Source: an uncultured Bacteroidota bacterium
GTDB taxonomy: Bacteria > Bacteroidota > Bacteroidia > Chitinophagales > Chitinophagaceae
Assembly (NCBI GenBank): GCA_946479055.1
Contig: CAMLEX010000027.1
Location: 1-14,733 of the forward strand
Direction of reading: 5' to 3'
DNA: 14,733 bases
The notes below the pieces were generated by a model. It was given only the letters and a program-made list of their open reading frames with translations. It did no database searches and was not told the origin of the DNA. The translations under genes were made by a program, and so were the position numbers. Numbering within the stretch: the first letter of the stretch is position 1; every line of letters starts with the position of its first letter. This document shows positions 646 through 14,733 of the stretch, piece by piece.

Positions 646-756
646 TAGTTTGAGTTGGTGTTTATTATGCATTTTCAATGTATAGTCCTCAACTGTGTCT
701 GCCAGAAAAAGAGTCTGTTTTATTGTATCGCCAATGGATATATCAGATTGAATCAA

Positions 757-764: not shown

Positions 765-782
765 TTCAATAGTATTTACAAA

Positions 783-1625
783 ATGAAAAAAATAATAACA
801 GGTTTAGTTCTGCTGATTGTAATAAGTGGTTGTTCTGCACAAAAAAAATCCAAATCCGGCAAATGGATAAAACTCTTTAACGGGAAAGATCTGAACGATT
901 GGACCGTTAAGATCAAAGATCACCCGGTGAATGATAACTGGGGAAATACTTTTCGTGTAGAAAATGGGGTGATGAAAGTTAGTTATGATCAGTATGGCGG
1001 TCAATTCAAGGAACAGTTCGGTCATATTTATTATAAGAAAAAGTTTTCTGCTTACCTGCTGGTAGTAGAATATCGTTTTACAGGTGAACAGATAAAAGAC
1101 GGGCCGGGTTGGGCAATCCGCAACAGCGGAATGATGTTGCATGGCCAGTCTCCGGAAACCATGGCGCTTGACCAGGATTTCCCTATTTCAATGGAAGCGC
1201 AATTCCTGGGTGGTAATGGAAAAGATGAACGCTCTACCAATAATCTCTGTACTCCCGGCACCAATGTAGTGATGAATGGTAAATTATTTACACCGCATTG
1301 TGTCAACTCTTCTTCCAAAACATATCATGGAGATCAGTGGGTGAGAGCGGAAGCATTGGTGTTGGGTGATTCCATTGTAAAACATATTGTGGAGAGTGAT
1401 ACAGTATTGGTGTATGGAAAGCCGCAATATGATGGTACTGATAAATGGGTAAAGCAAGCAGGTCTTACCGGTGGTATTACTATAAAGGAAGGAACTATTT
1501 CATTGCAAAGCGAAAGTCACCCAGTCGAATTCAGGAAAGTGGAAATATTTGATCTTTCAAAGTATATGGACAATCCTGTAAAACTCCAGGCTGTTATAAA
1601 AGAACTTAGCGGAAGAAAGAAATAA
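783..1625 (+). CDS. DUF1080 (3-keto-disaccharide hydrolase family) lipoprotein
   Basis: This 280-residue protein has an N-terminal lipoprotein signal: MKKIITGLVLLIVISGCSAQ, with lipobox VISGC and lipidated Cys18. The ATG at 783 was chosen because it places this signal at the N-terminus; an upstream in-frame extension to 678 would bury it. The mature part is a DUF1080 / 3-keto-disaccharide hydrolase domain (PF06439): it opens with WIKLFNGKDLNDWTV, the usual LFNGKDLxGW start, and later shows FRVENGVMKV, GWAIRNSGMMLHGQ, MEAQFLGG and a closing PVEFRKVEIFDL. The fold is a concanavalin-like beta sandwich. Characterised members cleave 3-keto-glycosides, while many relatives are uncharacterised glycan-binding or hydrolytic proteins. 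It lies between FGE and sulfatase genes on the same strand, so a periplasmic or surface role in sulfated glycan breakdown is inferred. The substrate cannot be read from sequence. Confidence 0.92.
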   Translation: MKKIITGLVLLIVISGCSAQKKSKSGKWIKLFNGKDLNDWTVKIKDHPVNDNWGNTFRVENGVMKVSYDQYGGQFKEQFGHIYYKKKFSAYLLVVEYRFTGEQIKDGPGWAIRNSGMMLHGQSPETMALDQDFPISMEAQFLGGNGKDERSTNNLCTPGTNVVMNGKLFTPHCVNSSSKTYHGDQWVRAEALVLGDSIVKHIVESDTVLVYGKPQYDGTDKWVKQAGLTGGITIKEGTISLQSESHPVEFRKVEIFDLSKYMDNPVKLQAVIKELSGRKK

Positions 1626-1744
1626 GAACACAATGGCTTTGAGATCACAGAGGATAATTATGTTTTAAGGTTAGATTTAATTCAATCGTTTGCATTCATA
1701 TCAGTAAATATTTTTATACCAGACATACAATTTCGAACAACCGG

Positions 1745-1774
1745 TTGCATGATATTCAGGTTGATTTATGTTTT
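1745..1774 (+). promoter_or_regulatory. Candidate promoter upstream of the sulfatase gene
   Basis: TTG at 1745-1747, a 19-base spacer and TATGTTTT at 1767-1774 (seven of eight positions of TAnnTTTG) resemble a Bacteroidota promoter. The initiation point would fall near 1781, before both candidate ATG codons (1802 and 1820). The 194-base gap after the DUF1080 gene makes an internal promoter plausible, but the match is imperfect. Confidence 0.3.
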
Positions 1775-1819
1775 AATTTCATTGCAAAGTGCATTGGGAA
1801 AATGCATTTACCCAAACGC

Positions 1820-3364: not shown

Positions 3365-3444
3365 ATAATAATAATACTGCCGGCGATATAAAGCAGTATA
3401 AATCTTTCGAACTGAATTTTTTAAAAATTGTATTATTGACAATT

Positions 3445-4497
3445 ATGCCACATAATGTGTTACCAGCATATGGATTAGAAGAAAAGTCTCTCGTAGTAGA
3501 GGCCTTTGGCAGTGGCCTTATCAATAACACCTGGAAAGTAACGGCTTCAGGTAATGAATATATTCTGCAAAGGGTGAATCATGCCGTATTTAAAGAGCCC
3601 GCTGATATTGCCAATAATATCCGGTTGATCGGCGCTTACCTCAGGAAAAATCATCCGGGTTATAAATTCGTTTCTCCGGTAACAAGCAATAAGGGTGATG
3701 AAATGATCTATCATGAAGACCAGGGTTATTTCCGGATGTTCCCTTTTGTACCGGGATCACATTCAAAGGATGTGGTGGAAACACCGGAGCAAGCTTATGA
3801 AGCGGCTACTCAATTTGGAAGATTTACCCGCTTGCTTCGTGGCGTGGATATAAAAAAGTTGAAAATTACTATTCCCTGTTTTCATGATCTTACCCTTCGC
3901 TACCAGCAGTTTCTGCTGGCATTGGAGAAGGGGAACAAACATCGTATTAATGAATCAGAAGCCTTAATAAAATCATTGGCTTCGCATGTTGACATTGCGA
4001 CCGAATATGGATATATAAAATCTGACCCTGCGTTTAAATTGAGGGTAACTCATCATGATACCAAGATCAGCAATGTATTGTTTGATGCAGATGGCAAAGG
4101 GTTATGCGTTATTGATCTGGATACGGTGATGCCCGGCTATTTCATCAGCGATGTAGGTGATATGATGCGGACCTATTTGTCTCCCGTCAGCGAGGAAGAG
4201 AATGAGTTTGGAAAAATCGAAGTGCGGGATGATTTTTATAAGGCCATTGTGCAGGGTTATTACAATGAAATGAAAGATGAACTGACGGAAACGGAGAAAA
4301 AAAATTTTTTCTATGCCGGAACGTTTATGATCTATATGCAGGCTCTTCGTTTTCTTACCGATTACCTGAACGATGATATCTATTATGGAGCGAAATATCC
4401 CCGCCACAATTTTGTCAGGGCCAAAAACCAGGTTGTATTGCTGGAGCAATTATTAAAAAAGAAAGAGCAATTGGAGAATATGATACTGGAAGGCTGA
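3445..4497 (+). CDS. APH-fold sugar kinase, NahK/MdsC-like (probable N-acetylhexosamine kinase)
   Basis: This 350-residue cytoplasmic protein has the aminoglycoside-phosphotransferase fold. GSGLINNTWKV (residues 22-32) is the nucleotide-binding loop. THHDTKISNVLFD gives the catalytic H203-x-D205-x(4)-N210 motif, and VIDLDTVMPG gives the metal ligands Asp224 and Asp226. These motifs match the family containing bifidobacterial N-acetylhexosamine 1-kinase and proteins often labelled mucin-desulfating MdsC. There is no signal peptide and no sulfatase motif, so a desulfatase label would be wrong for the protein itself. I chose ATG 3445 over an in-frame TTG nine bases upstream. It follows the sulfatase by 80 bases on the same strand, which suggests it phosphorylates a hexosamine released by that module; this is inference. 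Its last codons (MILEG) and stop lie inside a 7-bp repeat tract. Confidence 0.85.
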   Translation: MPHNVLPAYGLEEKSLVVEAFGSGLINNTWKVTASGNEYILQRVNHAVFKEPADIANNIRLIGAYLRKNHPGYKFVSPVTSNKGDEMIYHEDQGYFRMFPFVPGSHSKDVVETPEQAYEAATQFGRFTRLLRGVDIKKLKITIPCFHDLTLRYQQFLLALEKGNKHRINESEALIKSLASHVDIATEYGYIKSDPAFKLRVTHHDTKISNVLFDADGKGLCVIDLDTVMPGYFISDVGDMMRTYLSPVSEEENEFGKIEVRDDFYKAIVQGYYNEMKDELTETEKKNFFYAGTFMIYMQALRFLTDYLNDDIYYGAKYPRHNFVRAKNQVVLLEQLLKKKEQLENMILEG

Positions 4498-4543
4498 TGC
4501 TGGATACTGGTTGCCGGATACTGGTTGCTGAATGCCGGTAGCG
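4481..4543 (+). repeat. Degenerate 7-bp tandem repeat tract A, nine units
   Basis: Nine consecutive heptamers, among them GGATACT at 4502 and 4516, GGTTGCC at 4509, GGTTGCT at 4523 and GAATGCC at 4530, run without spacing. The first two units form the last codons of the kinase gene, and the third unit (TGATGCT, 4495-4501) supplies its TGA stop. The GGATACT/GGTTGCY alternation makes a 14-bp higher-order unit in the middle. Confidence 0.8.
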
Positions 4544-4572
4544 AGGATATTTCAAAAATAAAAACCTGCCAA

Positions 4573-4631
4573 CTATCATTTCCCTTCTTCCGAGGGAAGG
4601 AATCGTATTGCACACAAATATTAAATGATAG
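4573..4631. repeat. Nested inverted repeats between the kinase and EamA genes
   Basis: CTATCATTT at 4573-4581 is matched by AAATGATAG at 4623-4631, a perfect 9-bp inverted repeat. Just inside the left arm TTCCCT (4580-4585) and AGGGAA (4593-4598) form a 6-bp stem with a 7-base loop. No T-run follows, so this is not a clear terminator. It could be the remains of a small mobile or structured RNA element. Confidence 0.45.
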
Positions 4632-4681
4632 CTTAATTAAAAATACTTATTTCAGTAGCTTTAAAGTTTTTTGCCGGAGTT

Positions 4682-5623
4682 ATGAAACATAAACCAAAGC
4701 GGCAAAAAATAGTAGAAATGTTTAATGCAGGTAATACAAGATTGAAATGGTTAATAGCAGGAACATTATTTGCCGCTTTATGGGCTTCAGCTTCTACAGC
4801 TACTAAGATCGGGCTTACTATCGCACAACCGCTGGTGATTGCCGTGGTTCGTTTTGGTATCGCTGCCATTATCATGTTATTTATTGCACATGCTGTTAAG
4901 CGGCAACGCCTTCCTTCAGGTATGGAATGGAAACAAATCGCTATTTATGGACTGCTGAATATAACCATCTACTTAGGTTGCTATGTAGTAGCCATGCAAA
5001 CTATTACAGCAGGTATCGGCGCATTGGCTGTTGCTACTAATCCTGTATTTATTAGTTTTCTTTCCGTATTCTTTTTAAAAAAGAAATTAACTGGGCCGGT
5101 AATACTTTCAATAATTGTGTGTACTGCCGGCGTGTTGTGCGCAGCCTGGCCTTTGTTTGACGAAGCTGCAGTAACAGCACAGGGCCTGCTGATACTTCTT
5201 TTTAGCATGCTGTCTTATTCCGTTGCCGCTATTTATTTTTCCGCAAGAAAATGGAACGGTCTTTCTTTATTCACCATCAATGGCTGGCAAACATTTTTAG
5301 GCGGTTTGTTTTTATTACCCTTTGCATTGTTTTTTTATAAAGGTCAGGCCAATCAGTTTGATAAGACATTCTGGTTGTCTGTTGGCTGGTTGGCCATACC
5401 TGTTTCCATTGTTGCCGTGCAGCTTTGGTTGTGGTTGTTACAAACCAATGCCATCAGGGCGGGTTTGTGGTTGTTCTTATGTCCCTTGTTCGGTTTTGTA
5501 TTTGCTGCCTGGTGGATGAAAGATGCCATCAGTGTTTATACAATTGCAGGTGTAATGTTGGTGATCGGAGGATTGTTATTGTCTAAAATAAATGCAAGAA
5601 AAAGCGAGGTTGTTTTTGATTAG
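4682..5623 (+). CDS. EamA/DMT superfamily transporter
   Basis: This 313-residue inner-membrane protein is almost wholly hydrophobic, with about ten transmembrane segments arranged as two EamA repeats (roughly residues 20-150 and 165-305). The family hallmark FAALWASASTATKIGL in the first helix and the ITAGIGALAVATNPVFISFLS segment near the end of repeat 1 are typical of drug/metabolite transporters, which export small metabolites such as amino acids or nucleobases. The substrate cannot be predicted. The start at 4682 gives a basic leader (MKHKPKRQK); an ATG at 4718 is an alternative that still precedes the first helix. It is preceded by 184 bases of repeat-rich DNA, so it probably has its own transcription start. 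It converges on the HVA1-TUDOR gene, with 34 bases between the two stops. Confidence 0.93.
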   Translation: MKHKPKRQKIVEMFNAGNTRLKWLIAGTLFAALWASASTATKIGLTIAQPLVIAVVRFGIAAIIMLFIAHAVKRQRLPSGMEWKQIAIYGLLNITIYLGCYVVAMQTITAGIGALAVATNPVFISFLSVFFLKKKLTGPVILSIIVCTAGVLCAAWPLFDEAAVTAQGLLILLFSMLSYSVAAIYFSARKWNGLSLFTINGWQTFLGGLFLLPFALFFYKGQANQFDKTFWLSVGWLAIPVSIVAVQLWLWLLQTNAIRAGLWLFLCPLFGFVFAAWWMKDAISVYTIAGVMLVIGGLLLSKINARKSEVVFD

Positions 5624-5657
5624 AACCAAGGTGCCGCTGTATCCAAATGAAAAGGAA

Positions 5658-5879
5658 TTATTTCCCTTTTGCTATCTTTTTTAATGCTGAACCTTTATGT
5701 GCCGCTATATGATCGGTTTTATCGCTTTTAATTTCATATTGCGGATCGTCTTTGGTAGCATGATGTGTATAGCCTTTATACTTAAAATTTGAAGTATGAA
5801 TTTTTATAATTGTGCCGGAAACATGACCTGCTTCCGAATTCCAGCTTACATGATCGCCGACTTTAAATGAAGTTGCCAT
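5658..5879 (-). CDS. HVA1-TUDOR (DUF2945) small protein
   Basis: This 73-residue cytoplasmic protein matches the DUF2945 / hypervirulence-associated TUDOR family almost end to end: FKVGDHVSWNSEAGHVSGTI near the start, KYKGYTHHATKDDPQYEIKSDKTDHIAAHKGSALKK in separate blocks to the end. The ATG at 5877-5879 gives the usual family length; a longer in-frame start at 5933 would add 18 residues that do not look like the family. The fold is a small beta barrel. The biochemical role is not established, though these proteins are widespread in soil and plant-associated bacteria. It sits alone on the minus strand between two plus-strand genes. Confidence 0.9.
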   Translation of the reverse strand: MATSFKVGDHVSWNSEAGHVSGTIIKIHTSNFKYKGYTHHATKDDPQYEIKSDKTDHIAAHKGSALKKIAKGK

Positions 5880-6045
5880 GCTGTTTTCCCGGTTAAGAAC
5901 AAAAAGTAAGCCACCCGCCTGGAAATTATCCAAATCTTTAAACAGGCGATCTTACCCAATCATTTAGTTGAAAATAATTTTAGTAAAAATTGAACCTGAT
6001 AGCAGAATTATCTGTTTTATTTTTACAGAACATCAACCTTAAAAT

Positions 6046-6210
6046 ATGGGAGTCTGGAATCAAATAGCTGAATACCTGTACCTGAAAAAAAAAGACCCTG
6101 ATCGTCCGAAAAGTAAATGGATCGGTTATATGCACGGTATCAACCGTATCAGCCTGTTTATTTTTATTCTTTGCCTGGTCATCCTGGCAATTAAGCTGCT
6201 GAGAAAATAA
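6046..6210 (+). CDS. DUF6728-type small membrane protein
   Basis: A 54-codon gene begins ATGGGAGTCTGGAATC and ends with TAA at 6208-6210. The product starts MGVWNQIAEYLYLKKKDPDR, continues with a basic loop (PKSKWIGYMHGINR) and ends in one transmembrane helix (about residues 35-52, SLFIFILCLVILAIKLL) followed by RK. This layout matches a small Bacteroidota family I recall as DUF6728; the family name is from memory and less certain than the gene itself. The function is unknown. It stands alone and converges with the thioredoxin gene, leaving 19 bases between the two coding ends. Its brevity makes it easy for gene callers to miss. Confidence 0.78.
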   Translation: MGVWNQIAEYLYLKKKDPDRPKSKWIGYMHGINRISLFIFILCLVILAIKLLRK

Positions 6211-6229
6211 TAATAGCCGTCTTGAATGA

Positions 6230-6526
6230 TCATCCATTTTGAGTAAGAACATTCAGGAGGCTGTTCTTATCGATCGTGCCTGAATGGCGCCAGATAATAT
6301 TTCCTTTTTTAAAAATGATAAAGGTAGGAACGGCTTGTACCTGGTAAGCCTGTGCGGCCTGAACACTTTTATCTATATCTACTTTTATTACTCTTGCTTT
6401 GCCCTGGGTGGCTTTGGCTACTTCCTGAATGACGGGGCCCATGGCTTTGCACGGGCCACACCAATCCGCATAAAAATCTACCAATACAGGTTTTTCCGAG
6501 TTAATTAATTCCTTAAATGACTCCAT
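6230..6526 (-). CDS. trxA: Thioredoxin
   Basis: This 98-residue protein is a single thioredoxin domain without signal peptide, so it acts as a cytoplasmic dithiol reductant. The active site WCGPC occupies residues 22-26 in the context VLVDFYADWCGPCKAM. The cis-proline is Pro67 in QAVPTFIIF, and the helix after it is followed by GTIDKNSLL. Asp17 in the VDFYA strand matches the buried aspartate of classical thioredoxins. The length is slightly shorter than E. coli TrxA (about 108 residues) because the N-terminal strand is trimmed. The ATG at 6524-6526 opens the frame well. Upstream is the 330-base non-coding stretch, so it is probably transcribed alone. Confidence 0.95.
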   Translation of the reverse strand: MESFKELINSEKPVLVDFYADWCGPCKAMGPVIQEVAKATQGKARVIKVDIDKSVQAAQAYQVQAVPTFIIFKKGNIIWRHSGTIDKNSLLNVLTQNG

Positions 6527-6739
6527 TACTGATCAGTTTTCTTTTTGAAATAAAGGTTTGCAAATATTCTACATGATTGATGCCAAAAATGGATGATAAA
6601 CGCCGGAGACATTAAATCTTGTTTTTGCCAGGGGTACTGGATGTTTCCCCTTCAATTCATTCCATGAATTCAACTGTTCATCTAACAGAAATAACCGTTG
6701 ACTAAACGATTGTTTTTTTCCGTAAGCCCTGTGCCTTTC
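6527..6739. other. Non-coding stretch between thioredoxin and the candidate RNA
   Basis: No credible protein gene is visible on either strand. The only structure I see is a compact hairpin at 6651-6673: AATTCAT and ATGAATT around a TCC loop, extendable by two pairs past a mismatch. Just before it AGGGG (6630-6634) and CCCCT (6647-6651) could pair. The thioredoxin promoter should lie in the 6527-6600 part, but I could not identify it with confidence. Confidence 0.4.
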
Positions 6740-6769
6740 TTTGTGTAATAATCAGAAACAGTAACCTTG
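6740..6769 (+). promoter_or_regulatory. Candidate promoter for a short plus-strand RNA
   Basis: TTTG at 6740-6743, an 18-base spacer and TAACCTTG at 6762-6769 (seven of eight positions of TAnnTTTG) form a Bacteroidota-type -33/-7 pair. The spacer equals the one in the candidate promoter of the XRE gene. No protein gene lies downstream on this strand, but a terminator follows about 55 bases later. Confidence 0.35.
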
Positions 6770-6775
6770 AACCTT

Positions 6776-6851
6776 AGTCCTTTCCGAAAATTTTTCTCTA
6801 AAGCAGCAGTTTTTGTGTGAACGGCCCCGGATTCTTCCCGGGCCTCTTTTT
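6776..6851 (+). ncRNA. Candidate small RNA, about 76 nt
   Basis: The call rests on a promoter-like pair ending at 6769 and a terminator-like hairpin ending at 6851, with no open frame between them. The 3' end would lie six bases from the lpxB stop codon on the opposite strand, so the transcript would converge with lpxB mRNA. I recognise no known RNA family. The hairpin may instead belong to lpxB termination alone, which would leave no small RNA. Confidence 0.3.
6823..6851 (+). terminator. Rho-independent-type terminator, plus-strand polarity
   Basis: GGCCCCGG (6823-6830) pairs with CCCGGGCC (6837-6844) except for one C-C mismatch, around an ATTCTT loop, and is followed by TCTTTTT. The T-run is on the plus strand. 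On the minus strand the same hairpin lies just after the lpxB stop and is not followed by a T-run, so it would end lpxB transcripts only weakly. Confidence 0.6.
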
Positions 6852-6856
6852 ATAGT

Positions 6857-7975
6857 TTAAGCTGTTGAGGCTGCAAGAAAATGAACAATGGAGTGTGCAG
6901 CTTTGGAAGAAGCATTACCGCCTTCACTTAGGATATTTTTCAAAGCGGAATAATCTTTCTGCAATTCGGCTTTCCGGGTTTCATTCGTTAATAATTCCTG
7001 TAATTCATGCCGCAGGTTTTCTACAGTCATATCATCCTGTATCAATTCCTTTACCACCAGTTTATCCATGATGAGATTGACCAATGAAATGTATTTTACT
7101 TTTACTAACCGTTTGCCGATCTGGTAAGAAATATATGAGCCTTTGTAACAAACCACCTCCGGTACACCGAATAATGCAGTTTCTAATGTAGCGGTACCTG
7201 ATGTAACCAATGCTGCTTTTGACTGCGTCAATAAATTGTAAGTTTGGTTAGAAACATACGAAACATTGGAATAAGGCTTTAACAAATCGTCATAAAATGT
7301 TTCTTCCACTCCCGGCGCTTTGGCAACAATGAATTGATAAGTGGGAAATGATTTACTCACTTCCAGCATGACGGGCAATTTTTTTAAGATCTCCTGTTTC
7401 CTGCTTCCGGGAAGTAAAGCGATGATTGAACTATCAGAAAACTTTTCACTTTTCACTTCTGACTTCTGACTTTCCACCACTTCCACCAACGGATGTCCTA
7501 CATACTCTACATCCCAGTTCCATTTGTTTTTAAAATAATCTTTTTCAAAAGGGAGAATAACGAGCATTCTGTCAATGCATTCCTTCATCATTTTTACACG
7601 GCCTTCTTTCCAGGCCCATACCTGCGGGCTGATATAGTATATAACTTTTATTCCCTGTTCCCTGGCCCATTTGGCAATACGAAGATTGAAGCCAGGATAA
7701 TCAATAAGAATAAGGGTGTCGGGTTTATATTGTAAAATATCTTCTTTACAGAAGGCAAGATTTTTAAAAATGGTGCGAAGGTTCATCAGCACTTCTGTAA
7801 ATCCCATAAAGGCAAGATCACGGTAATGCTTTACTAATTCGCCACCGGCAGCCTGCATTTTATCGCCACCCCAGCAACGCATATCAGCGGAGTTGTCCAG
7901 TTTTTTTAATTCTTTTATAAGATTGCTGCCGTGCAGATCTCCTGATGCTTCACCTGCAATGATGTAGTATTTCAT
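6857..7975 (-). CDS. lpxB: Lipid-A-disaccharide synthase
   Basis: This 372-residue GT19 glycosyltransferase joins UDP-2,3-diacylglucosamine to lipid X on the cytoplasmic face of the inner membrane to make lipid A disaccharide. Diagnostic segments are YYIIAGEASGDLHGSNLI at the N-terminus, CWGGDKMQAAGG, IDYPGFNLRIAKWA, YYISPQVWAWKEGRV, EYVGHPLVEVV, IIALLPGSRKQEI and SGTATLETALFGVPEVVCYK. Length is normal. The ATG at 7973-7975 must be the start because the conserved sequence begins there. Residues about 168-180 (ESQKSEVKSEKFS), between the two Rossmann domains, are encoded by a 7-bp repeat tract and do not look like family sequence. It is the last gene of the surE operon. Its start codon directly abuts a long inverted repeat, which may affect translation. 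Confidence 0.97.
   Translation of the reverse strand: MKYYIIAGEASGDLHGSNLIKELKKLDNSADMRCWGGDKMQAAGGELVKHYRDLAFMGFTEVLMNLRTIFKNLAFCKEDILQYKPDTLILIDYPGFNLRIAKWAREQGIKVIYYISPQVWAWKEGRVKMMKECIDRMLVILPFEKDYFKNKWNWDVEYVGHPLVEVVESQKSEVKSEKFSDSSIIALLPGSRKQEILKKLPVMLEVSKSFPTYQFIVAKAPGVEETFYDDLLKPYSNVSYVSNQTYNLLTQSKAALVTSGTATLETALFGVPEVVCYKGSYISYQIGKRLVKVKYISLVNLIMDKLVVKELIQDDMTVENLRHELQELLTNETRKAELQKDYSALKNILSEGGNASSKAAHSIVHFLAASTA
7441..7475 (-). repeat. 7-bp tandem repeat tract B inside lpxB, five units
   Basis: On the plus strand the units are ACTTTTC (7441), ACTTTTC (7448), ACTTCTG (7455), ACTTCTG (7462) and ACTTTCC (7469). In the lpxB sense they read AGTCAGA twice and AGTGAAA twice. They encode the Lys/Ser/Glu-rich residues about 168-179, in the linker before the conserved IIALLPGSRKQEI. 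Confidence 0.85.
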
Positions 7976-8105
7976 GCCCCCATCCCCTAAAGGGGTGTTT
8001 TGAAGTTAATAATAACTTGAATATTTTTTTTCATTTGGACTTTCCAATTTTAGAAATGGTTTTTATAATAAAAAAGTTCTTAAACACCCTTTAGGGGATG
8101 GGGGC
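7976..8105. repeat. MITE-like inverted-repeat element between lpxB and the small membrane gene
   Basis: The left arm (7976-8004) and right arm (8077-8105) are inverted copies. The outer 19 bp are identical and contain CCCCTAAAGGG, then a 1-base indel is followed by a shared TGTTT. The 72-base interior is AT-rich and has no open frame. Each arm carries its own small palindrome (CCCCTAAAGGGG on the left, an 11-base version on the right). The layout fits a non-autonomous palindromic element. It fills the whole gap between the lpxB start and the end of the upstream gene. Confidence 0.8.
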
Positions 8106-8108
8106 TTT

Positions 8109-8405
8109 CTAATTCAATAATTTCAAAACCAAAATGGCGATACCATAAACCAATGTGATGATAAAAATTCCTTTAGCTGTAGTATCCCTGTGTGTGTTGA
8201 CATACAATGTAAACAAAACAACATTGGCCAGCAAAGAAAGAGAGCCAATAGAAGTGATCAGTTTATTATTATGAAAAAACTCATCGAGGAAACCTCCAAA
8301 TGACACTGCAGAAAATTTAATAAAATAAATAATAATTAATCCAAGCAGTGGGCCTATCAATCCGAGAATTAAGCCGAGCTTCAGGTTATCTTTTTTTAGT
8401 ATCAT
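8109..8405 (-). CDS. Small three-helix membrane protein, function unknown
   Basis: The 98-residue product starts MILKKDNLKLGL and has three predicted transmembrane segments at about residues 10-30, 50-69 and 79-96. A short polar loop (FGGFLDEFFHNNK) follows the first and THRDTTAKG precedes the third. The ATG at 8403-8405 overlaps the 3' end of surE by 20 bases, which suggests translational coupling; an in-frame ATG at 8423 is possible but would add six residues and lengthen the overlap. I do not recognise a named family. Its place between surE and lpxB on one strand marks it as an operon member, perhaps linked to the envelope, but no function can be stated. Confidence 0.8.
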   Translation of the reverse strand: MILKKDNLKLGLILGLIGPLLGLIIIYFIKFSAVSFGGFLDEFFHNNKLITSIGSLSLLANVVLFTLYVNTHRDTTAKGIFIITLVYGIAILVLKLLN

Positions 8406-9240
8406 TTTTCCAGAGTTTTTCAAGTTTGGATTTCTGTTCGTAATGGGTCATATCAAATTGAACAGGCACTATACTTACATACCCATTGGCCAGAGCCCAT
8501 ACATCCGTATCTTTTCCGTTGTCAAAATTTACAAATTCACCGGTTAACCAGTAATACTTCCGTCCATGAGGGTCCTGCCTCTCCATAAAATCTTCTTCGT
8601 ATTTCGCATAGGCCTGGCGGCAAAGTTTGTATCCTTTTAATGCCTCAGCCGGTAAAGCTGGAATATTTACATTCAGTACAGTATGCTTCTCCATTGTGGT
8701 TGCCAGCATTTTTTCAACAACCATTCTTACATATTTCCTGGCTCCGGTAAAATCTGCTTCAATACTATAATCTAATAAAGAAAAACCCGCGGAAGGGATG
8801 CTCTCAATAGCTGCTTCTACAGCTGCCGACATGGTACCCGAATAAATAACGTTGATACTATGATTAGCACCATGATTGATACCACTTAAACACAGATCAG
8901 GTTTGCGATGCAATATTTTGTCAACGGCAAGCTTTACACAATCAACGGGTGTGCCGGTACAGGAATAAGCTTCAATATCTCCAAATACATTTGCTTTATG
9001 CAAGCGCAATGGCTGACCAATCGTAATAGCATGTCCCATACCTGACTGAGGTTTGTCAGGAGCCACTACAACAACTTTCCCAAGATCTTTTACAGCTTCT
9101 ACAAGGTTCATAATGCCGGGAGCTGTTACGCCATCATCATTTGTAATAAGGATAACCGGTTTCTCTTTGCTGGAGCTGGTTGTTTTTCCAGCTTTTGGTT
9201 TACTTTTTCTGGCAACCGAAGGGATAGATTTTTTTGTCAT
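8386..9240 (-). CDS. surE: 5'/3'-nucleotidase SurE
   Basis: This 284-residue metal-dependent nucleoside monophosphate phosphatase acts in the cytoplasm. The core begins VILITNDDGVTAPGI with metal ligands Asp35 and Asp36, continues with VVVVAPDKPQSGMGHAIT (Ser66) and LCLSGINHGANHS (Asn122), and then VIYSGTMSAAVEAA, which are all the standard SurE blocks. An N-terminal extension of about 27 residues rich in Lys and Ser (MTKKSIPSVARKSKPKAGKT and on) precedes the domain and is longer than in E. coli SurE. It could be real or reflect a start further downstream, but no later ATG precedes NDDG. It is the first gene of an operon with the small membrane gene and lpxB, and is divergent from the XRE regulator with 110 bases between start codons. 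Confidence 0.96.
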   Translation of the reverse strand: MTKKSIPSVARKSKPKAGKTTSSSKEKPVILITNDDGVTAPGIMNLVEAVKDLGKVVVVAPDKPQSGMGHAITIGQPLRLHKANVFGDIEAYSCTGTPVDCVKLAVDKILHRKPDLCLSGINHGANHSINVIYSGTMSAAVEAAIESIPSAGFSLLDYSIEADFTGARKYVRMVVEKMLATTMEKHTVLNVNIPALPAEALKGYKLCRQAYAKYEEDFMERQDPHGRKYYWLTGEFVNFDNGKDTDVWALANGYVSIVPVQFDMTHYEQKSKLEKLWKNDTKKR

Positions 9241-9299
9241 ATACTAAGCAAAAATGTTTGTTTTTTTCGGCATGTCCAAACAGCTAACTGAAAAAAGGT

Positions 9300-9328
9300 T
9301 TTGAAAATCTAAATAAATTAGTATTTTG
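9300..9328 (+). promoter_or_regulatory. Candidate promoter of the XRE-S24 regulator gene
   Basis: TTTG at 9300-9303, an 18-base spacer and TATTTTG at 9322-9328 resemble a Bacteroidota -33/-7 pair. Initiation would be near 9335, leaving a leader of about 16 bases. The two operator-like dyads sit on this promoter, which strengthens the case. Confidence 0.45.
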
Positions 9329-9345
9329 CAGCTAAACAAATTAGT
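9309..9345. promoter_or_regulatory. Two tandem operator-like dyads, CTAA-N5-TTAG
   Basis: CTAAATAAATTAGT (9309-9322) and CTAAACAAATTAGT (9332-9345) differ at one base. Each is an inverted repeat CTAA-N5-TTAG suited to a dimeric HTH protein. Their starts are 23 bp apart, about two helical turns, so both face the same side of the DNA. One lies between the candidate -33 and -7 boxes and the other over the likely start of transcription. Self-repression by the XRE-S24 protein is the natural inference. Confidence 0.65.
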
Positions 9346-9350
9346 GTATT

Positions 9351-10100
9351 ATGGCAATGGCAAACCAGAATATGAAATACCTCCGCAAACTTCGCGGATG
9401 GACACAGGAAGAATTTGCAAATAAACTCCGTATCAAACGATCCCTGCTTGGAGCTTATGAAGAAGAAAGAGCCGAGCCCCGTATTGATGTATTGGAAGTA
9501 GTCTGTGATATTTTTAAACTGACACTGGATGAAATATTGCGAAAAGATCTGAGCGATAATAAGAGTAATTACATGGCAAAGCGCCGGGCTATGAAGCTTG
9601 CCTCGGGTCGTCCGGATATACCTTTTGTACCGGTAAAGGCTGCAGCCGGATATCTTGCTGGCTATGCTGATCCGGAATTTGTAGATGAGCTTAACACCTT
9701 CACCCTGCCGATGCTGGCGGGCGGCAATTACAGGGCATTTGAAATTATCGGAGATTCCATGTTGCCTACACCCAGCGGCTCGGTGATAGTTGGGGAAAAA
9801 ATAGAGAAAATAGATGAGTTGAAAAATGATAGTGCCTGTATTGTTGTGTCAAGGCATGAAGGTATTGTGTACAAACGGGTTCAGAAACACGGCCGCTCAA
9901 AAGATAAATTGACTCTTGTCAGTGATAATCCTATTTATCATCCTTATACTGTCAAGGCAGAAGATGTGCTGGAAATGTGGCAGGCCCAGATGGTCATTTC
10001 CAAAGCGAATCAGCAACAGCGCTGGGATATGGGCCAATTGGCTAATATTGTCAGCGACCTGCAGGAACAGGTGGTTTCATTAAAGAAAAAGATGAATTAA
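9351..10100 (+). CDS. XRE-family HTH regulator with S24 (LexA/CI-like) peptidase domain
   Basis: This 249-residue transcription factor has an N-terminal helix-turn-helix (about residues 8-62: YLRKLRGWTQEEFANKLRIK, then LLGAYEEERAEPRIDVL). A LexA-type S24 domain follows at about residues 95-215. The self-cleavage machinery looks complete: the scissile Ala99-Gly100 in VKAAAGYLAG, nucleophile Ser136 in EIIGDSMLPT and general base Lys175 in GIVYKRVQ, with spacings close to those of LexA. A short coiled-coil-like tail (MGQLANIVSDLQEQVVSLKKK) ends the protein. The ATG at 9351 is followed by another at 9357; either could start. It is not LexA itself, whose HTH is of a different type. Two dyads upstream suggest autoregulation, and the divergent surE operon may share them. 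No phage genes are nearby, so it looks like a chromosomal regulator. Confidence 0.93.
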   Translation: MAMANQNMKYLRKLRGWTQEEFANKLRIKRSLLGAYEEERAEPRIDVLEVVCDIFKLTLDEILRKDLSDNKSNYMAKRRAMKLASGRPDIPFVPVKAAAGYLAGYADPEFVDELNTFTLPMLAGGNYRAFEIIGDSMLPTPSGSVIVGEKIEKIDELKNDSACIVVSRHEGIVYKRVQKHGRSKDKLTLVSDNPIYHPYTVKAEDVLEMWQAQMVISKANQQQRWDMGQLANIVSDLQEQVVSLKKKMN

Positions 10101-10176
10101 CCCCCTTTCGACCCGTTTTTTCACCCTTTTTTTCCTTTTCCCCGTTATGTCTCTTTTAGTCTTCAAAACAGTCTGT

Positions 10177-10184
10177 TATATTTG
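10177..10184 (+). promoter_or_regulatory. Candidate -7 element for the DUF5916 gene
   Basis: TATATTTG matches TAnnTTTG exactly and ends 14 bases before the ATG. The expected -33 region (around 10154-10159) contains TTTTAG, only a partial match. The distance from -7 element to ATG is close to that seen before the DUF1080 gene. Confidence 0.42.
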
Positions 10185-10198
10185 TTCCAATTGAGCTT

Positions 10199-12652
10199 AT
10201 GCTGTTTTTACGACTATTCTGCTTAGCCTTGCTATTACTGGTGTGCGGGTCTTTATTTTCCCAGGCAAAAACATTGCAAGCTATTAAATTGTCTCATGGT
10301 CCACCTCTGATCGATGGAGATCTTGATGAGCCGGCATGGAAGAACATTCCGGTTGCCGGCGGATTCATTCAGAATTTTCCCAGCTTTGGATTGTCCGCCT
10401 CGCAAAAGAGTGAAGTCAAAATCAGTTACGATAATTCTGCTATTTACATCGGAGCCTATCTCTACGACGACCCTGCATTGATCCGCAAACAAATAACCGC
10501 CAGGGATGAAGAACAGTTGAAAGACCTGGATTATTTTTCTGTTTTTTTTGATACGTATAATGATCAGCAAAATGGATTCCAGTTCCTGGTTACTTCTTCT
10601 AATGTTCAGACTGATGCACGACTGTCTCCGAATGTTGTAACCGGATTTGGTGAATATGGCGACAAAACCTGGGATGCTGTATGGGAAAGTAAGGTTTCCA
10701 TAAAAAATGATGGCTGGGTGGTGGAAATGAAAATACCGTATATCTCCCTGCGATTTGCAAAAAGCGATGTGCAGGACTGGGGGCTTCAGTTGCTGCGCTC
10801 TGTCCGTCGTAATAATGAAACGAGTTTCTGGAATGCTGTGGATCCTAATGTAAATGGTTTTGTAAACCAGTTTGGCCGTTTAAAAAATCTTGTTGATATC
10901 CAACCACCGCTCAGGCTTAGTTTTTCTCCTTATCTGTCAACAGGAGTCCGCAGTATACCGGAAAACGAGGGTAAGAGGACGGAATGGTTGCGTAGTGGCG
11001 GTATGGATGTAAAATATGGCATCAATGAAAGTTTTACCCTGGATGCGACATTGATCCCCGATTTTGGCCAGGTAGTTTCTGATAATGTTGTCAACAACCT
11101 GACGCCTTACGAAGTAAAGTTTGAAGAATATCGTCCTTTCTTTACGGAAGGAACTGAAATGTTCAATAAATCGGATTTATTTTATTCCCGTAGGATAGGT
11201 GCAACTCCCGCTGGTTACGATGCCGTTAATAATATGGCGGATGATAATCCCAATATTGAAATCATAAAAAATCCTGGCCGGACACAATTGTATAATGGGA
11301 TCAAATTTTCGGGCCGCACTCCCAGGAAATTGGGGATTGGATTTTTCAATGCACTTGCTGCGCCGATGCATGCCCTTATCAGGAATAAAACAACCGGCGA
11401 ACAAACGAAAATTCAAACCGAGCCCCTGACCAATTATAATATTTTTGTACTGGACCAGGCATTGAAAGGAAGGTCTTCTGTTACATTTACCAATACCAAT
11501 GTAATGCGTAACGGTACAAACAGCGATGCGAATGTCAGCGGGCTTGATTTCAGCTTATACGACAAAAAAAATCTATACAATATCAAGGGGTATGGCCATT
11601 ACAGTAAAATATTCAATGCTAATTCTACTGATGGCTATAATACTTCGCTGCGATTGGGAAAAGTGAGTGGTAAAATTCAATATTATGCCCAAAACACGAT
11701 AAGGTCTTACAATTATGACCCGGATGATCTTGGCTATCAGCAAACAGACAATCAAAATATCACTACAGTTTATATAGCTTACAAGCAACTAACGCCAACA
11801 AAAAAATTTCTTTCGTATGAATATTCATTGACGACACTTTATGAGCGTTTGTATAAACCAGACAGGTTTAGTTCGCTGCAGATACAGGCAAAGGCTTTTT
11901 GGTATTTAAAGAATTTCTGGGATATTTCATTAAGAGCCGCCTATCTTCCCGACCAGCACGATTATTTTGTAATACGAAAACCCTATGATGCGTTTGCCTG
12001 TCGTCCGCAATATGGTTCTTTATCATTGACCGGAAGTACAGATAGCCGCAAAAGATTGTTTTTTAATTATAATTTTCTGATAGCTGAGTTCTTTAAAAAC
12101 CCTGAAAAGGAATACTATATTCTCGAAGCAGGTGTCCGGTATCGTTTTAGTAACCAGCTAACACTAGAGTTATCTCACAAATATGAAACCGAGACAGACT
12201 ATATTGTCAGTGCAGCCAGGGATAATCTAGGCAGACCACGAATCGCCTTTGTAGATTTTAAAGAAGTGTCTTCAGTGTTTTCCGGCATTTATAATTTTAC
12301 TTCACTCATCAACTTTACACTTCGTGTACGTCATTACTGGAGTAATGTTCCAATCAAACGGGTCGCTTATCTCGACGATAAAGGATATCCCGTTTCTGTT
12401 TCCAATGTAGCGGCTGAGGATAATGTCAATTTTTTTAACGCAGATGCTTTTCTCACCTGGGACTTTCGTTATGGCAGCCGCCTGATCCTGGGTTATAAAA
12501 ACTGGCTTGGCGAAGATCAATATGTGGATGGTAGCCGCTACAAACGATATGCTCCTAATCTTGGTCAAACCTTTGGTTTAAAACACGGTAATGAAGTAAC
12601 ATTGCGGTTTATTTATTTTTTGGATTATAACCAGCTTCGGAAAAAACGCTGA
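10199..12652 (+). CDS. DUF5916 outer-membrane barrel protein with CBM9-like N-terminal domain
   Basis: This 817-residue protein begins with a signal peptide (MLFLRLFCLALLLLVCGSLFSQ; cleavage near residue 21; Cys16 does not sit in a good lipobox). Residues about 28-230 resemble the carbohydrate-binding family 9-like domain: PPLIDGDLDEPAWKNI, then VKISYDNSAIYIGAYLYDD and DYFSVFFDTYNDQQNGFQF. The rest fits DUF5916: a conserved LDATLIPDFGQVVSDN, FFTEGTEMF and FYSRRIG, then many alternating aromatic/polar strands expected of an outer-membrane beta barrel, ending in RFIYFLDYNQLRKKR. The role of the family is not established; a surface binding or transport function is inferred from the architecture. 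It is monocistronic by position, after the XRE gene and convergent with pdeM. Its stop codon lies at the start of a 7-bp repeat tract. Confidence 0.92.
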   Translation: MLFLRLFCLALLLLVCGSLFSQAKTLQAIKLSHGPPLIDGDLDEPAWKNIPVAGGFIQNFPSFGLSASQKSEVKISYDNSAIYIGAYLYDDPALIRKQITARDEEQLKDLDYFSVFFDTYNDQQNGFQFLVTSSNVQTDARLSPNVVTGFGEYGDKTWDAVWESKVSIKNDGWVVEMKIPYISLRFAKSDVQDWGLQLLRSVRRNNETSFWNAVDPNVNGFVNQFGRLKNLVDIQPPLRLSFSPYLSTGVRSIPENEGKRTEWLRSGGMDVKYGINESFTLDATLIPDFGQVVSDNVVNNLTPYEVKFEEYRPFFTEGTEMFNKSDLFYSRRIGATPAGYDAVNNMADDNPNIEIIKNPGRTQLYNGIKFSGRTPRKLGIGFFNALAAPMHALIRNKTTGEQTKIQTEPLTNYNIFVLDQALKGRSSVTFTNTNVMRNGTNSDANVSGLDFSLYDKKNLYNIKGYGHYSKIFNANSTDGYNTSLRLGKVSGKIQYYAQNTIRSYNYDPDDLGYQQTDNQNITTVYIAYKQLTPTKKFLSYEYSLTTLYERLYKPDRFSSLQIQAKAFWYLKNFWDISLRAAYLPDQHDYFVIRKPYDAFACRPQYGSLSLTGSTDSRKRLFFNYNFLIAEFFKNPEKEYYILEAGVRYRFSNQLTLELSHKYETETDYIVSAARDNLGRPRIAFVDFKEVSSVFSGIYNFTSLINFTLRVRHYWSNVPIKRVAYLDDKGYPVSVSNVAAEDNVNFFNADAFLTWDFRYGSRLILGYKNWLGEDQYVDGSRYKRYAPNLGQTFGLKHGNEVTLRFIYFLDYNQLRKKR

Positions 12653-12684
12653 TGGTTTGAAGTTTGAGGTTTGAGGTTGTTGAA
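12650..12684 (+). repeat. 7-bp tandem repeat tract C at the DUF5916 stop codon, five units
   Basis: Units TGATGGT (12650), TTGAAGT (12657), TTGAGGT (12664), TTGAGGT (12671) and TGTTGAA (12678) follow one another. The TGA of the first unit is the stop codon of the DUF5916 gene. The tract lies between two convergent genes. Confidence 0.72.
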
Positions 12685-12746
12685 CAATACCGATAGCTTT
12701 TTTTCTTTAATGAGTTTCAATTAAGTGGAAAAGCGTTAACAAATTT

Positions 12747-13430
12747 TCAGCGGTTTAAACTCTTATTACTTTGTAAGGGCATAATTTCTTTTTCTACAAT
12801 AGCAAAAACATTTTCTCCTCTTTGTGGCTCTACTCTATAGGTTCCTGTAAAACGACTGAATGCCGGAAGTATGCAATGAGTTTTTGTAAAATAGAAACAG
12901 GGAAAACGAAGAGATTGTTTTCCTCTTCCTCTTAGCGTGATACCCGGATGTACATGACCGGAAAAAATAAATTTTCCAGGCTCCACTGTGATCTTTGGTT
13001 TTAAAATATCATGAACAAATAAAAAATGCCGGATGGCAAAAGGATTATTGTGAACTTTTATATCTGCTTCTTCATACCAGCGGTTATCCAGGATATCATG
13101 ATTTCCTTTTGCCAGGTAAACTTCTAATAAAGGAAAATCTTTACGCCATTTTCTGAAGAGATCCATTTCCCTGTTGGCAATGCTATGTGTAAGATCGCCA
13201 ACAATGATCAGTTTTTCCGCTTTGAAAAAAAGTATCTGTGCAAGTAAACGGTGAAGATCATCCTTATATACAGCGGAAGGCACGCCAATACCTGCTTTAC
13301 GAAAATGGCCGGTTTTGCCAACATGCAGATCGGCAACGATCAGCGCATTTTCATTCTCCCAAAACAATGTTCTTTCACTGCTCAGGATCAAATGTTCTTT
13401 ACCAATAATATGTGATAAAAGGGTTGCCAT
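12747..13430 (-). CDS. pdeM: Ligase-associated DNA damage response endonuclease PdeM
   Basis: This 227-residue calcineurin-like metallophosphoesterase shows every metal-binding motif: ADLHVGK (Asp34, His36), VGDLTHS (Asp79, His82), KGNHD (Asn110, His111), VHD (His140) and SGHVHP (His159, His161). The pattern DLHVGKxxxFRxxGxxVP after an N-terminal strand-rich segment is typical of PdeM, a nuclease usually encoded with an ATP-dependent DNA ligase and a DEXH helicase and thought to act in DNA repair. Here the helicase gene lies directly upstream on the same strand, which supports the name. No ligase gene is in the window. The ATG at 13428-13430 gives normal family length. The C-terminal tail (LQSNKSLNR) is short and variable. 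Confidence 0.95.
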   Translation of the reverse strand: MATLLSHIIGKEHLILSSERTLFWENENALIVADLHVGKTGHFRKAGIGVPSAVYKDDLHRLLAQILFFKAEKLIIVGDLTHSIANREMDLFRKWRKDFPLLEVYLAKGNHDILDNRWYEEADIKVHNNPFAIRHFLFVHDILKPKITVEPGKFIFSGHVHPGITLRGRGKQSLRFPCFYFTKTHCILPAFSRFTGTYRVEPQRGENVFAIVEKEIMPLQSNKSLNR

Positions 13431-13453
13431 AGGAGTTACAAATCTAAGGCAAA

Positions 13454-13488
13454 AGTTGACAGTTGGAATTGGACAGTTGACAGACTGC
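13454..13488 (+). repeat. 7-bp tandem repeat tract D between pdeM and the helicase gene
   Basis: Units AGTTGAC (13454), AGTTGGA (13461), ATTGGAC (13468), AGTTGAC (13475) and the diverged AGACTGC (13482) run in phase. The tract is an inverted counterpart of tract E about 65 bases away, so together they could form a long imperfect hairpin in the helicase-pdeM transcript. Confidence 0.78.
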
Positions 13489-13550
13489 GGCAGGCAGCGT
13501 TCATATTTTCTGCACGTGTTCTAAATCAGGAATTTTGAATATTAAATGCT

Positions 13551-13592
13551 GTCAACTCCCAACTGTCATCGGTCAACTTCCAACTGTTGCTG
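13551..13592 (-). repeat. 7-bp tandem repeat tract E over the helicase stop codon, six units
   Basis: Plus-strand units are GTCAACT (13551), CCCAACT (13558), GTCATCG (13565), GTCAACT (13572), TCCAACT (13579) and the diverged GTTGCTG (13586). On the minus strand they read AGTTGAC and AGTTGGA, the same as tract D on the other strand. They encode the helicase tail QQQLEVDR and its TGA stop (13566-13568). Confidence 0.8.
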
Positions 13593-14684
13593 CATCCTTC
13601 TCACCCTGTCTTCCAGTTTTTCGGAAGAAAGATCTTCCCGCATACTGTCTACTTTGATGGGGAAGCAAAAGGGCGTTAATCTTTCAGGAAAAGTAATGAT
13701 GATGCTGGATGATTGTATACGTTGCAGCATATCTCTTAAACGGACTTCTTCCATTTGCTGGTCGAATACTTCCTGGTAGGCCTGCCTGATTAATAAATTG
13801 TTGGGTTCATACTCAGTAAATACATTAAAAAGGAGAGAAGCTGATGCCTGCAAATGTTTTGATTTTATTTTTTCACCGGGCAAGCCCTGGAATACCAGTC
13901 CGCCAATAACAGCTATATCCCTGAATTTTCTGCGGGCCATTTCTGTAGCATTAACGCTCCGTTGTATATCCGCCAATAAATTATCCGGGGAAAAAAGATC
14001 ATATACATTGGTATCATCAACAGGAACGGGCTGATCACTTAATAATTCAAAACCATAATCGTTCATGGCAAATGAAAAAGTGATGGGAGTGATGAGGCTG
14101 ATACGATAAGCCAAAATAGCGGCCATTGCTTCATGCACCAACCTGCCTTCAAAAGGATATACAAATAGATGAAAACCATCTTTGGTTTCTATTTGCTCAA
14201 TCAGCAATTCATTGGCTTTTGGTACATGAGAAAGTTTTTCCTGCAATACGAATAATGGTTTTAATACGGTTAATTCCGTTTCTCGTTTCCTGGATCCCGT
14301 TTCTCGTATCCCGTTGCTCGTTTCTCGTTGCTTGTTTCTCGTTTCTCGTTTCTCGTTGCCCACATCACGCATCCCGTACCCCGTAGCTTCTTCTATTAAT
14401 GCTTCATTAAACTTCTCTCTTAGCTTCTTCCCCAAATTAGCACTCAATGGCATCCGCCCGCCCTGCCAGCTTGGGACCATTGATTTTTTGGAAGAACTTT
14501 TTCGCACCAATACGGTCATCTCTTTTAACATCACAAATTCTAAATTCCTGCCAGCCAGTGTAAACACATCACCCGGTTGTAAACGTGAAATAAACCATTC
14601 TTCAATAACACCAATATAACCGCCGGTCATGAATTTTACTTTCATCATGGACTCGCTTACAATAGTGCCGATATGCAACCGGTG
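13566..14684 (-). CDS. Ligase-associated DNA damage response DEXH-box helicase, C-terminal part
   Basis: About 372 codons of the C-terminal region are present; the ATPase core is missing because the gene runs into foreign sequence near 14684. Recognisable family blocks (numbered from the Leu codon at 14678) are LHIGTIVSESMMKVKFMTGGYIG, the WFISRLQPGDVFTLAGRNLEFV segment, VPSWQGGRMPLSA (about 68-80), LLIEQIE, LFVYPFEGRLVHEAMAAILAYR and FAMNDYGFELLS. The full protein is an Lhr-like superfamily 2 helicase that travels with PdeM and a DNA ligase in repair. Residues about 98-135 are a repeat-encoded insert with RET every seven residues, absent from the family as I know it. The gene's stop lies in repeat tract E. 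The gap to pdeM, 135 bases, is filled mostly by repeats; co-transcription is still likely. Confidence 0.93.
   Translation of the reverse strand, partial: HRLHIGTIVSESMMKVKFMTGGYIGVIEEWFISRLQPGDVFTLAGRNLEFVMLKEMTVLVRKSSSKKSMVPSWQGGRMPLSANLGKKLREKFNEALIEEATGYGMRDVGNEKRETRNKQRETSNGIRETGSRKRETELTVLKPLFVLQEKLSHVPKANELLIEQIETKDGFHLFVYPFEGRLVHEAMAAILAYRISLITPITFSFAMNDYGFELLSDQPVPVDDTNVYDLFSPDNLLADIQRSVNATEMARRKFRDIAVIGGLVFQGLPGEKIKSKHLQASASLLFNVFTEYEPNNLLIRQAYQEVFDQQMEEVRLRDMLQRIQSSSIIITFPERLTPFCFPIKVDSMREDLSSEKLEDRVRRMQQQLEVDR
14275..14386 (-). repeat. 7-bp tandem repeat tract F inside the helicase gene, sixteen units
   Basis: Exactly 112 bases divide into sixteen heptamers in phase. On the plus strand CTCGTTT occurs at 14282, 14317, 14338 and 14345, CTCGTTG at 14324 and 14352, CCCGTTT at 14296, and the remaining units (such as CCCGTTG, CTCGTAT, CTTGTTT, CACGCAT, CCCGTAC) differ at one to a few positions; CCTGGAT (14289) and CCCACAT (14359) are the most diverged. 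In the gene's sense the consensus is AAACGAG. It encodes helicase residues about 98-135. Confidence 0.92.

Positions 14685-14733
<49 letters not shown>

Follow-up and report, generated by a model that had tools for sequence, protein, structure and literature searches.

Why should one short piece of bacterial DNA carry several repeat tracts that share a period but not a sequence? The question is raised by a stretch of 14,733 nucleotides from an uncultured Bacteroidota bacterium assigned to Chitinophagaceae (assembly GCA_946479055.1, contig CAMLEX010000027.1, positions 1 to 14,733), hereafter the window, in which an initial annotation made from the sequence alone had listed six dispersed tracts of degenerate 7-bp tandem repeats, each with its own unit. 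We lean towards the view that these tracts represent complete or remnant arms of quasipalindromes, shaped at the DNA level by strand slippage together with template switching between the arms.

The six tracts keep a 7-bp period, as had been claimed. In a lag test over lags 3-14, lag 7 or lag 14 was the highest in all six; lag-7 identity was 0.54, 0.82, 0.64, 0.57, 0.51 and 0.70 for tracts 1 to 6 in order, and the lag value of each tract was matched by no more than 0 to 3 of its 2000 dinucleotide shuffles, although the tracts had been chosen by eye, which makes this test post hoc. No equal-length segment of the window scored at or above tracts 1, 2 and 6, and 2/14160 did so for tract 3; for tracts 4 and 5, which are weak when taken alone, the overlapping segments doing so were 30/14160 and 65/14111. 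Tandem Repeats Finder reported arrays of period 7, 14 or 21 at 4482-4538, 7441-7477, 12654-12678, 13454-13483 and 14277-14357, and tract 5 (13551-13592) was absent from its list. A scan of the whole window for periods 3-14 (score of at least 12) returned three segments of period 7, two of period 14 and none of any other. Head-to-tail 7-bp units beyond chance, as in the heptanucleotide tandem repeats of prokaryotes that go by the names short tandemly repeated repetitive sequences (STRR) or long simple sequence repeats (LSSR), are present both in the window and in its relatives.

Tract 1 (4481..4543, plus strand) alternates GGATACT and GGTTGCC, hence its strongest lag of 14; it overlaps the stop codon (4495-4497) of an APH-family open reading frame (ORF; 3436-4497), and its G-rich strand reads into the intergenic region. 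Tract 2 (7441..7475, minus strand) lies within lpxB (6857..7975, minus strand; lipid-A-disaccharide synthase, TIGR00215), in the loop between the GHPL and LPGSR motifs, where its frame is free of stops. Tract 3 (12650..12684, plus strand; GTTTGAG) is a single arm directly at the stop codon of a DUF5916 ORF (10199-12652). Tracts 4 (13454..13488, plus strand; AGTTGAC/AGTTGGA) and 5 (13551..13592, minus strand) flank a 62-bp spacer (13489..13550). The former adjoins pdeM (12747..13430, minus strand; ligase-associated phosphoesterase, TIGR04123), 23 bp from its start at 13430, and the latter encodes the last residues of a ligase-associated DEXH helicase and overlaps its stop codon (13566-13568). 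The window holds the C-terminal part of this helicase (13566..14678, minus strand; the best TIGR04121 stretch covers positions 565-803 of 804), and inside the same gene, in frame, is the longest tract, tract 6 (14275..14386, minus strand; GAAACGA and variants).

The initial annotation overlooked that tracts 4 and 5 are the left and right arms of one inverted repeat that spans the intergenic region between the helicase gene and pdeM. Alignment of the tract 4 arm to the reversed tract 5 arm gave a score of 17, reached by 1 of 2000 shuffles, and the 166-base stretch holding the pair, folded as single-stranded DNA, had a z of -2.3 (3 of 200 shuffles as good). The surroundings of the lone arm at 12650 folded unremarkably (z -1.3; 21 of 200 shuffles as good), and the inverted partner of tract 3 scored 8.0, barely over the control maximum of 7.5. 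We found both genes adjacent in 11 relatives (pdeM is not next to the helicase in L002 and L006). The region is armless in 8 of the 11 (best hairpin score 7-11); it carries 8-bp arms in L009 (score 30), 9-bp arms in L012 (28) and another arm type in L013 (14). Unit length at this one place is therefore 7 bp in the window, 8 bp in L009 and 9 bp in L012, even though L009 and L012 share 91% identity across 20.6 kb; the unit, annotated as differing between places, also differs at a single place between relatives. Inverted repeats of the type CCACTGAGACACTAAGG..CCTTAGTGTCTCAGTGG, seen in this region of L013 and in Pinibacter region 25, are another intergenic inverted-repeat family in similar places. 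At the inner end of the window's left arm (13485-13497) stands CTGCGGCAGGCAG.

The initial annotation had proposed comparing period 7 with its neighbours and with shuffled sequence in related genomes. In 80 loci collected by LpxB similarity plus the window (81 records, 1.37 Mb), a set picked by kinship and not for tracts, a lag score of at least 15 was reached by 52 segments of period 7, located in 33 records, and by 12, 3, 1 and 0 segments of periods 8, 9, 6 and 5, respectively; the other periods (4-6, 8-15) gave 0-12 segments each and shuffles none at any period from 4 to 15. At a score of 12, the counts for periods 7, 8, 9, 6 and 5 were 77, 20, 4, 2 and 0. We then took 40 stretches (784 kb), regardless of tracts, from as many genomes in the family of the Pinibacter genome G160, a few of which had also contributed loci to the first set; they gave 16, 6, 2, 2 and 0 segments for the same periods, with a tract of period 7 or 8 in 9 of the 40 stretches. 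Two 50-kb stretches of E. coli (100 kb) gave none at periods 5-10. The excess over periods 5, 6, 9 and 10 is clear, and period 8 forms a second class (20 vs 77 in the 81 records; 98 vs 172 in Pinibacter). Tracts are thus present in close relatives, where their absence had been named as evidence against a dedicated process, but their density is very uneven: per 100 kb we counted 0.5 in G003, 1.5 in G005, 1.2 in G169, 7.5 in G161 and 27.5 in G160. Thirty lpxB loci from the order of G003 (121 kb) had 0.8 per 100 kb, the sole period-7 segment being that of G003. Period-7 richness is therefore not at one level, and not uniform, across the order.

Blocks of 200-220 kb were compared between three sister genomes of Pinibacter, whose identity is 74-88% in the longer matches to a 3-kb query. 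These blocks held 51, 77 and 44 segments of period 7, 43, 28 and 27 of period 8, and 5, 5 and 1 of period 9, with none of periods 5, 6 and 10. Of the 101 intergenic regions common to the three species, 45 carry a tract in one species or more, and 17 do so in every species. Hairpins were found in 134 of 340 Pinibacter intergenic regions, compared to 15 when arms were swapped, and in 49 of 559 regions of the other loci, compared to 5. In Pinibacter, identity along the arms was 0.46-0.50 at lag 7, 0.39-0.45 at lags 8 and 14, and 0.24-0.31 at the other lags of 3-13. Identity of at least 0.5 at lag 7 or lag 8 is reached by an arm in 87 of the 134 Pinibacter hairpins and 18 of the 49 others, so that some of these hairpins are not of the heptad kind. 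Arms of one region also match each other: the regions whose own partner beats all of 30 arm swaps were 20/120, 28/111 and 23/109 in the three species (3.5-3.9 expected in each), overall 71 of 340, with about 11 expected.

Orthologous intergenic regions of these sisters differ by whole units. Gaps of 7 bp numbered 13, 13 and 16 in the three species pairs, compared to 2, 1 and 3 of 6 bp and 4, 3 and 2 of 8 bp, which makes 7 bp the modal gap size beyond 1-3 bp; 10, 8 and 12 of the 7-bp gaps duplicate their neighbour in tandem. Units are also swapped in place between sisters (for example in regions 3, 19, 24 and 30, by eye). In regions 81 and 43 the spacer is reverse-complemented between sisters while the arms have not moved. 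The region 81 spacer aligns directly between P1 and P3 (44 vs 7), inverted between P1 and P2 (35 vs 11), and inverted between P2 and P3 (52 vs 13, the best of 1000 shuffles scoring 15); that of region 43 is inverted between P2 and P3 (56 vs 8). Whole-unit steps, arm matching and flipped spacers are, in these alignments, evident. Together, the period-7 excess, the diversity of units and the 7-bp gap mode in the three Pinibacter species uphold the claim of a common generating process.

The explanation nearest to that of the initial annotation is that each tract arose from a chance seed by local slippage, with no inversion or copying. It would account for the period-7 excess, the unit diversity and the 7-bp tandem indels, and a seed of AAG-GCAC-AAG type is visible in several lpxB sequences (by eye). 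An inverted partner within 150 bp that beats the best of up to 20 controls was found for 17 of 59 tracts (a direct partner for 8 of 59), and the 42 of 59 without one also suit it. The inverted partners themselves, the arm matching, the flipped spacers and the exact copies described below do not, nor do the 6 of 19 tract-bearing lpxB loops of ordinary length. As a full account we regard local slippage as very improbable; on its own it is hard to hold for paired arms and possible for single ones.

With respect to genes, the tracts prefer intergenic DNA: 27 of 77 lie inside ORFs (57 expected), and those no more than 60 bp away from a stop or a start number 20 and 23, respectively (8.6 and 8.1 expected). 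In a larger set of 322 intergenic tracts, most of them from Pinibacter, the gene end is a median of 8 bp away. The initial annotation had remarked that most units can be phased to begin with GA or GG on one strand; this carries little information, as 80% of random 7-mers of the window can be so phased on one strand or the other, and the real feature is a strand polarity relative to genes. On the strand running out of the gene into intergenic DNA, tracts with more G than C outnumber those with more C than G by 36:10 outside Pinibacter and 185:27 within it, and the window tracts at 4481, 12650, 13454 and 13551 follow this rule (by eye). Coding tracts lack the inward polarity, with corresponding sense-strand ratios of 12:17 outside Pinibacter and 2:13 within. 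Hairpins have a G-richer rather than a G-poorer 5' arm in a ratio of 104:16 in Pinibacter (14 equal) and 33:13 in the other loci (3 equal); the window's own pair likewise has the G-richer arm first. Since an inverted repeat is identical on both strands this polarity is independent of the direction of transcription. Frame-independent stop codons were rejected as the main cause of periods 7 and 8: inward-strand units holding a stop are near expectation under letter permutations, both in general (35/55; 33.9 expected) and in Pinibacter (232/267; 216.1 expected).

Concentration at gene ends, and an architecture that in places persists despite changed letters, are what selection for intergenic RNA structures would give, the hairpins being kept as terminators, mRNA ends or insulators. 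We judge this quite improbable. On the sense strand of co-directional Pinibacter regions, G.U mismatches are not above A.C mismatches (27:26, 44:41 and 20:22; 91 vs 89 in total), which speaks against such selection; hairpins also occur inside lpxB (8 of 81 loops), the arms are missing from many orthologous regions, as in 8 of the 11 helicase-pdeM regions above, and some spacers hold a separate terminator-like hairpin (by eye). A search of the window with Rfam at the gathering score gave 0 matches.

Under the quasipalindrome reading that we favour, the arms would be built of 7-bp, at times 8- or 9-bp, units, and strand slippage would add or remove such units whole. A nascent strand that switched template between the arms at replication would overwrite one arm with the other and occasionally flip the spacer, and arms may also be copied into regions elsewhere in which similar units are already present. 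Selection would purge tracts from most coding sequence, leading to their accumulation at gene ends, and stop-free units could be tolerated in loose protein loops. No dedicated enzyme was found and none is required. Spacer inversion, a feature of template switching in quasipalindromes, was apparent from the alignments in Pinibacter only. The identity of the agent as template switching, the way in which arms disperse, the reason for seven and the extension to the window's own tracts are inferred.

Several observations weigh against this explanation. Comparison of G003 and G005, about 85% identical and with few tracts, yielded 4 indels of 7 bp, 14 of 6 bp and 8 of 8 bp, and no 7-bp tandem copies; a general excess of 7-bp indels is therefore rejected, and the group as a whole does not share the 7-bp step. 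These two genomes also have a coding site where a tract in one faces an equally long, less regular stretch in the other, with no indel. Out of 124 Pinibacter region pairs, 56 spacers were resolved, 53 as direct and 3 as inverted (in two regions), and 68 were unresolved. The outer arms of region 43 are not heptads (by eye), and in some regions, region 3 among them, one arm was replaced while the other was not. RecA-type recombination between arms would likewise invert a spacer, and it is for this reason that template switching is the presumed agent only. Finally, slippage and template switching alone leave unexplained both the preference of 7 over 6 and the 68 exact copies of a 31-bp array.

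This array, the 31-mer AATTGAAAATTGAAAGTTGAAAATTGAAAAT, occurs in G160 in 37 forward and 31 reverse copies, so that "not one copied element", as the initial annotation had put it, was too strong; the better match of own than of swapped arms also runs counter to that statement. Copies within 250 bp of each other form 8 convergent pairs and no divergent ones (counted from the listing). Their flanks differ from copy to copy (30 loci and four more stretches, by eye) and some copies show no partner within 170 printed bases, which indicates that arms spread within the genome without their own spacer. The copies and their convergent pairing would also suit a mobile palindrome akin to the REPIN, a pair of repetitive extragenic palindromic (REP) sequences, moved by a single-strand Y1 transposase of RAYT type, the 7-bp period then being a feature of the recognition sequence. 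PF01797 (Y1 transposase) is present in 55 of 63 genomes, and Bacteroidetes RAYTs of subclass 2.6 are reported to be flanked by atypical structures that are copied elsewhere in the genome (PMC6006769). Yet of 20 loci of 1.9-3.4 kb surrounding Y1_Tnp genes, 4 have a tract, and neither G161, with 6 tracts in 80 kb, nor G009, the genome with the 8-bp arms of L009, has a PF01797 match, though these assemblies may be incomplete. The varied flanks of the 31-mer and the change of units between species are unlike a conserved element, and the 31-mer lacks GTAG, the start that tags REP elements linked to Y1 transposases. We consider movement by such a transposase rather unlikely.

Other palindromes are dispersed in these genomes. 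One, GTAGGGGCGAATCGCATTCGCCC, recurs in the Pinibacter intergenic regions L184, L193 and L202-L204 and does start with GTAG (by eye). The 16-bp palindrome CCCGATAGCTATCGGG is present in 12 of 148 genomes of the phylum, in up to 30 copies (28 in G173, 15 in G165), and in 6 of the 20 genomes contributing loci. In L016 it is next to the lpxB tract, in L014 a variant of it lies inside the lpxB tract, and the helicase loop of L081 has exact and variant copies; the 81 records hold 4 exact copies, one of them within 150 bp of a tract (0.1 expected), and we treat a link with the tracts as no more than a lead. A further palindrome, CCTGCCTGCCGGTAGGCAAGG, near the tract upstream of lpxB, is present in G005 and absent from G003.

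Hairpins might also persist because the hairpin nuclease SbcCD was lost, a modifier of the quasipalindrome explanation and not a full rival to it. Within the family of G160, SbcD (TIGR00619) scored above cut-off in 21 of 147 genomes, which is patchy for a hairpin nuclease of general function; it did so in 1 of the 16 genomes first examined, compared to 8 of 14 controls. Tracts of period 7 and 8 numbered 5 in 384 kb of SbcD-bearing genomes and 17 in 400 kb of SbcD-less ones, and intergenic hairpins were found in 10 of 139 and 18 of 159 regions, respectively. Counted by genome, however, the figures (a tract in 3 of 20 SbcD-bearing vs 6 of 20 SbcD-less) are too few to tell, one genome gives 10 of the 17 tracts, SbcD-bearing genomes have tracts as well, and the SbcD counts ignore kinship; weak matches in open frames of about 417-466 residues could, moreover, be divergent SbcD. 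A contribution of SbcCD loss is unlikely, and neither this loss nor a RAYT is established as a cause.

Two of the window's tracts are read in frame, and both positions were compared with relatives. Of 81 LpxB sequences, 19 have a period-7 tract in the GHPL-LPGSR loop, with many different units; period 6 was found in 1 of 81, periods 5, 8, 9 and 10 in none, and shuffles gave none. Tract-bearing loops range from 33 to 69 residues. Six of the 19 have 33 residues, a length common without a tract, and hence some tracts arrived without net insertion. In the order-wide sample 0 of 29 lpxB loops inspected had a tract, which makes the loop a favoured site only among the near kin of the window. Four further distinct sequences (L084, L085, L087 and L088) have a shorter version of the helicase loop that holds tract 6; they are from a set of 15 in which six missed the motif and were unread and three repeat others. 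L084 has a weak period-7 score of 10 there, and L081 has two palindromes in place of the tract.

Heptamer repeats are already known from cyanobacteria, Xanthomonas, Beggiatoaceae and five Bacteroidetes. The GGGAATC and GGGGA(T/C)T heptamers of Xanthomonas and Nostoc are described as degenerate, mostly intergenic and nearer to the upstream gene (28 nt on average), with 70 and 75 convergent inverted pairs in two Xanthomonas genomes (PMC4692102). Our tracts share with them the degenerate 7-bp tandem units, the intergenic location, the convergent pairs and the G-richer first arm. That study concerns one G-rich unit with quadruplex potential, whereas here units are many, change by place and by species, and are also read in frame in lpxB and the helicase gene. 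No quadruplex-type run of at least three G is present in the consensus units of the six tracts, although single units have one (by eye).

The initial annotation knew of no named counterpart in Bacteroidota; one is in print. Direct repeats of TAACTGA, intergenic and in many cases near start codons, are recorded from Beggiatoaceae, cyanobacteria and five Bacteroidetes species, some of whose arrays are accompanied by other heptamer arrays, and relatives with the same genes are repeat-free (PMC4679880). Our tracts resemble these intergenic Bacteroidetes arrays with their repeat-free relatives, but the TAACTGA repeats are, as described there, defined by one unit, and inverted pairs with unit turnover and 7-bp steps appear to distinguish ours. 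The TAACTGA doublet has 0 matches in the window at up to 2 mismatches. The same source relates that heptanucleotides predominate among the long simple sequence repeats of Mrazek et al. 2007, who proposed slippage with a 7-nt polymerase contact (PMC4679880). That proposal would fit our tracts, and the degenerate inverted-pair architecture does not feature in the work as summarised there. In the P6b stem of the Nostoc trnL intron, 7-nt motifs of Class I and Class II exchange in place (PMC4476775), much as units substitute within our hairpins; P6b is one RNA locus whose stem pairing is thought important, while ours are many DNA regions with no sign of RNA selection. REPIN and RAYT systems (PMC6006769, PMC3733652) likewise consist of dispersed intergenic inverted pairs; unlike them, our arms have no specific link to Y1 transposase genes, and no conserved tagged palindrome was seen on them, without a systematic scan. 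Template switching between short inverted repeats in yeast is reported to yield arm homogenisation and spacer inversion (PMC8604942), both seen here; the yeast case, as reported, has no unit period. Our literature search, whose coverage leaves out most subscription papers, found no report from Chitinophagaceae of an inverted form with changing units, and both the unit turnover and the in-frame lpxB form appear to be new.

A bolder and doubtful reading is that what this DNA hands on is an architecture and not a sequence. Inverted arms in steps of 7-8 bp, the G-rich strand facing inward, would bracket intergenic regions and be rewritten so quickly that sister species retain the shape while the letters are lost; the driver would be some replication or repair activity that has an inherent step of 7 nt and is especially active in some Chitinophagaceae. 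Heptamer dominance among simple repeats spans several unrelated bacterial phyla, and Pinibacter with its two sister genomes offers a natural system for counting 7-bp steps, arm copying and spacer inversion, in which the heptamer question becomes testable by mutation accumulation in Pinibacter aurantiacus MAH-26. The block-wise rewriting of intergenic DNA, and of loops in conserved proteins such as LpxB, is relevant to gene annotation, phylogenetics and indel models.

As to the rest of the window, the closest match to its LpxB, 85% identical, is from a Chitinophagales assembly, and many further close matches are labelled Chitinophagaceae, Niastella or Ferruginibacter. A surE gene lies at 8386-9240 (minus strand). 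The last bases (14690-14733, minus strand; G+C is 78% over the final 45) are in a frame that differs from that of the neighbouring helicase; they encode QLSGGQQQRVAIARAL, which we take to be an ABC-transporter signature, and are probably a chimeric contig end.

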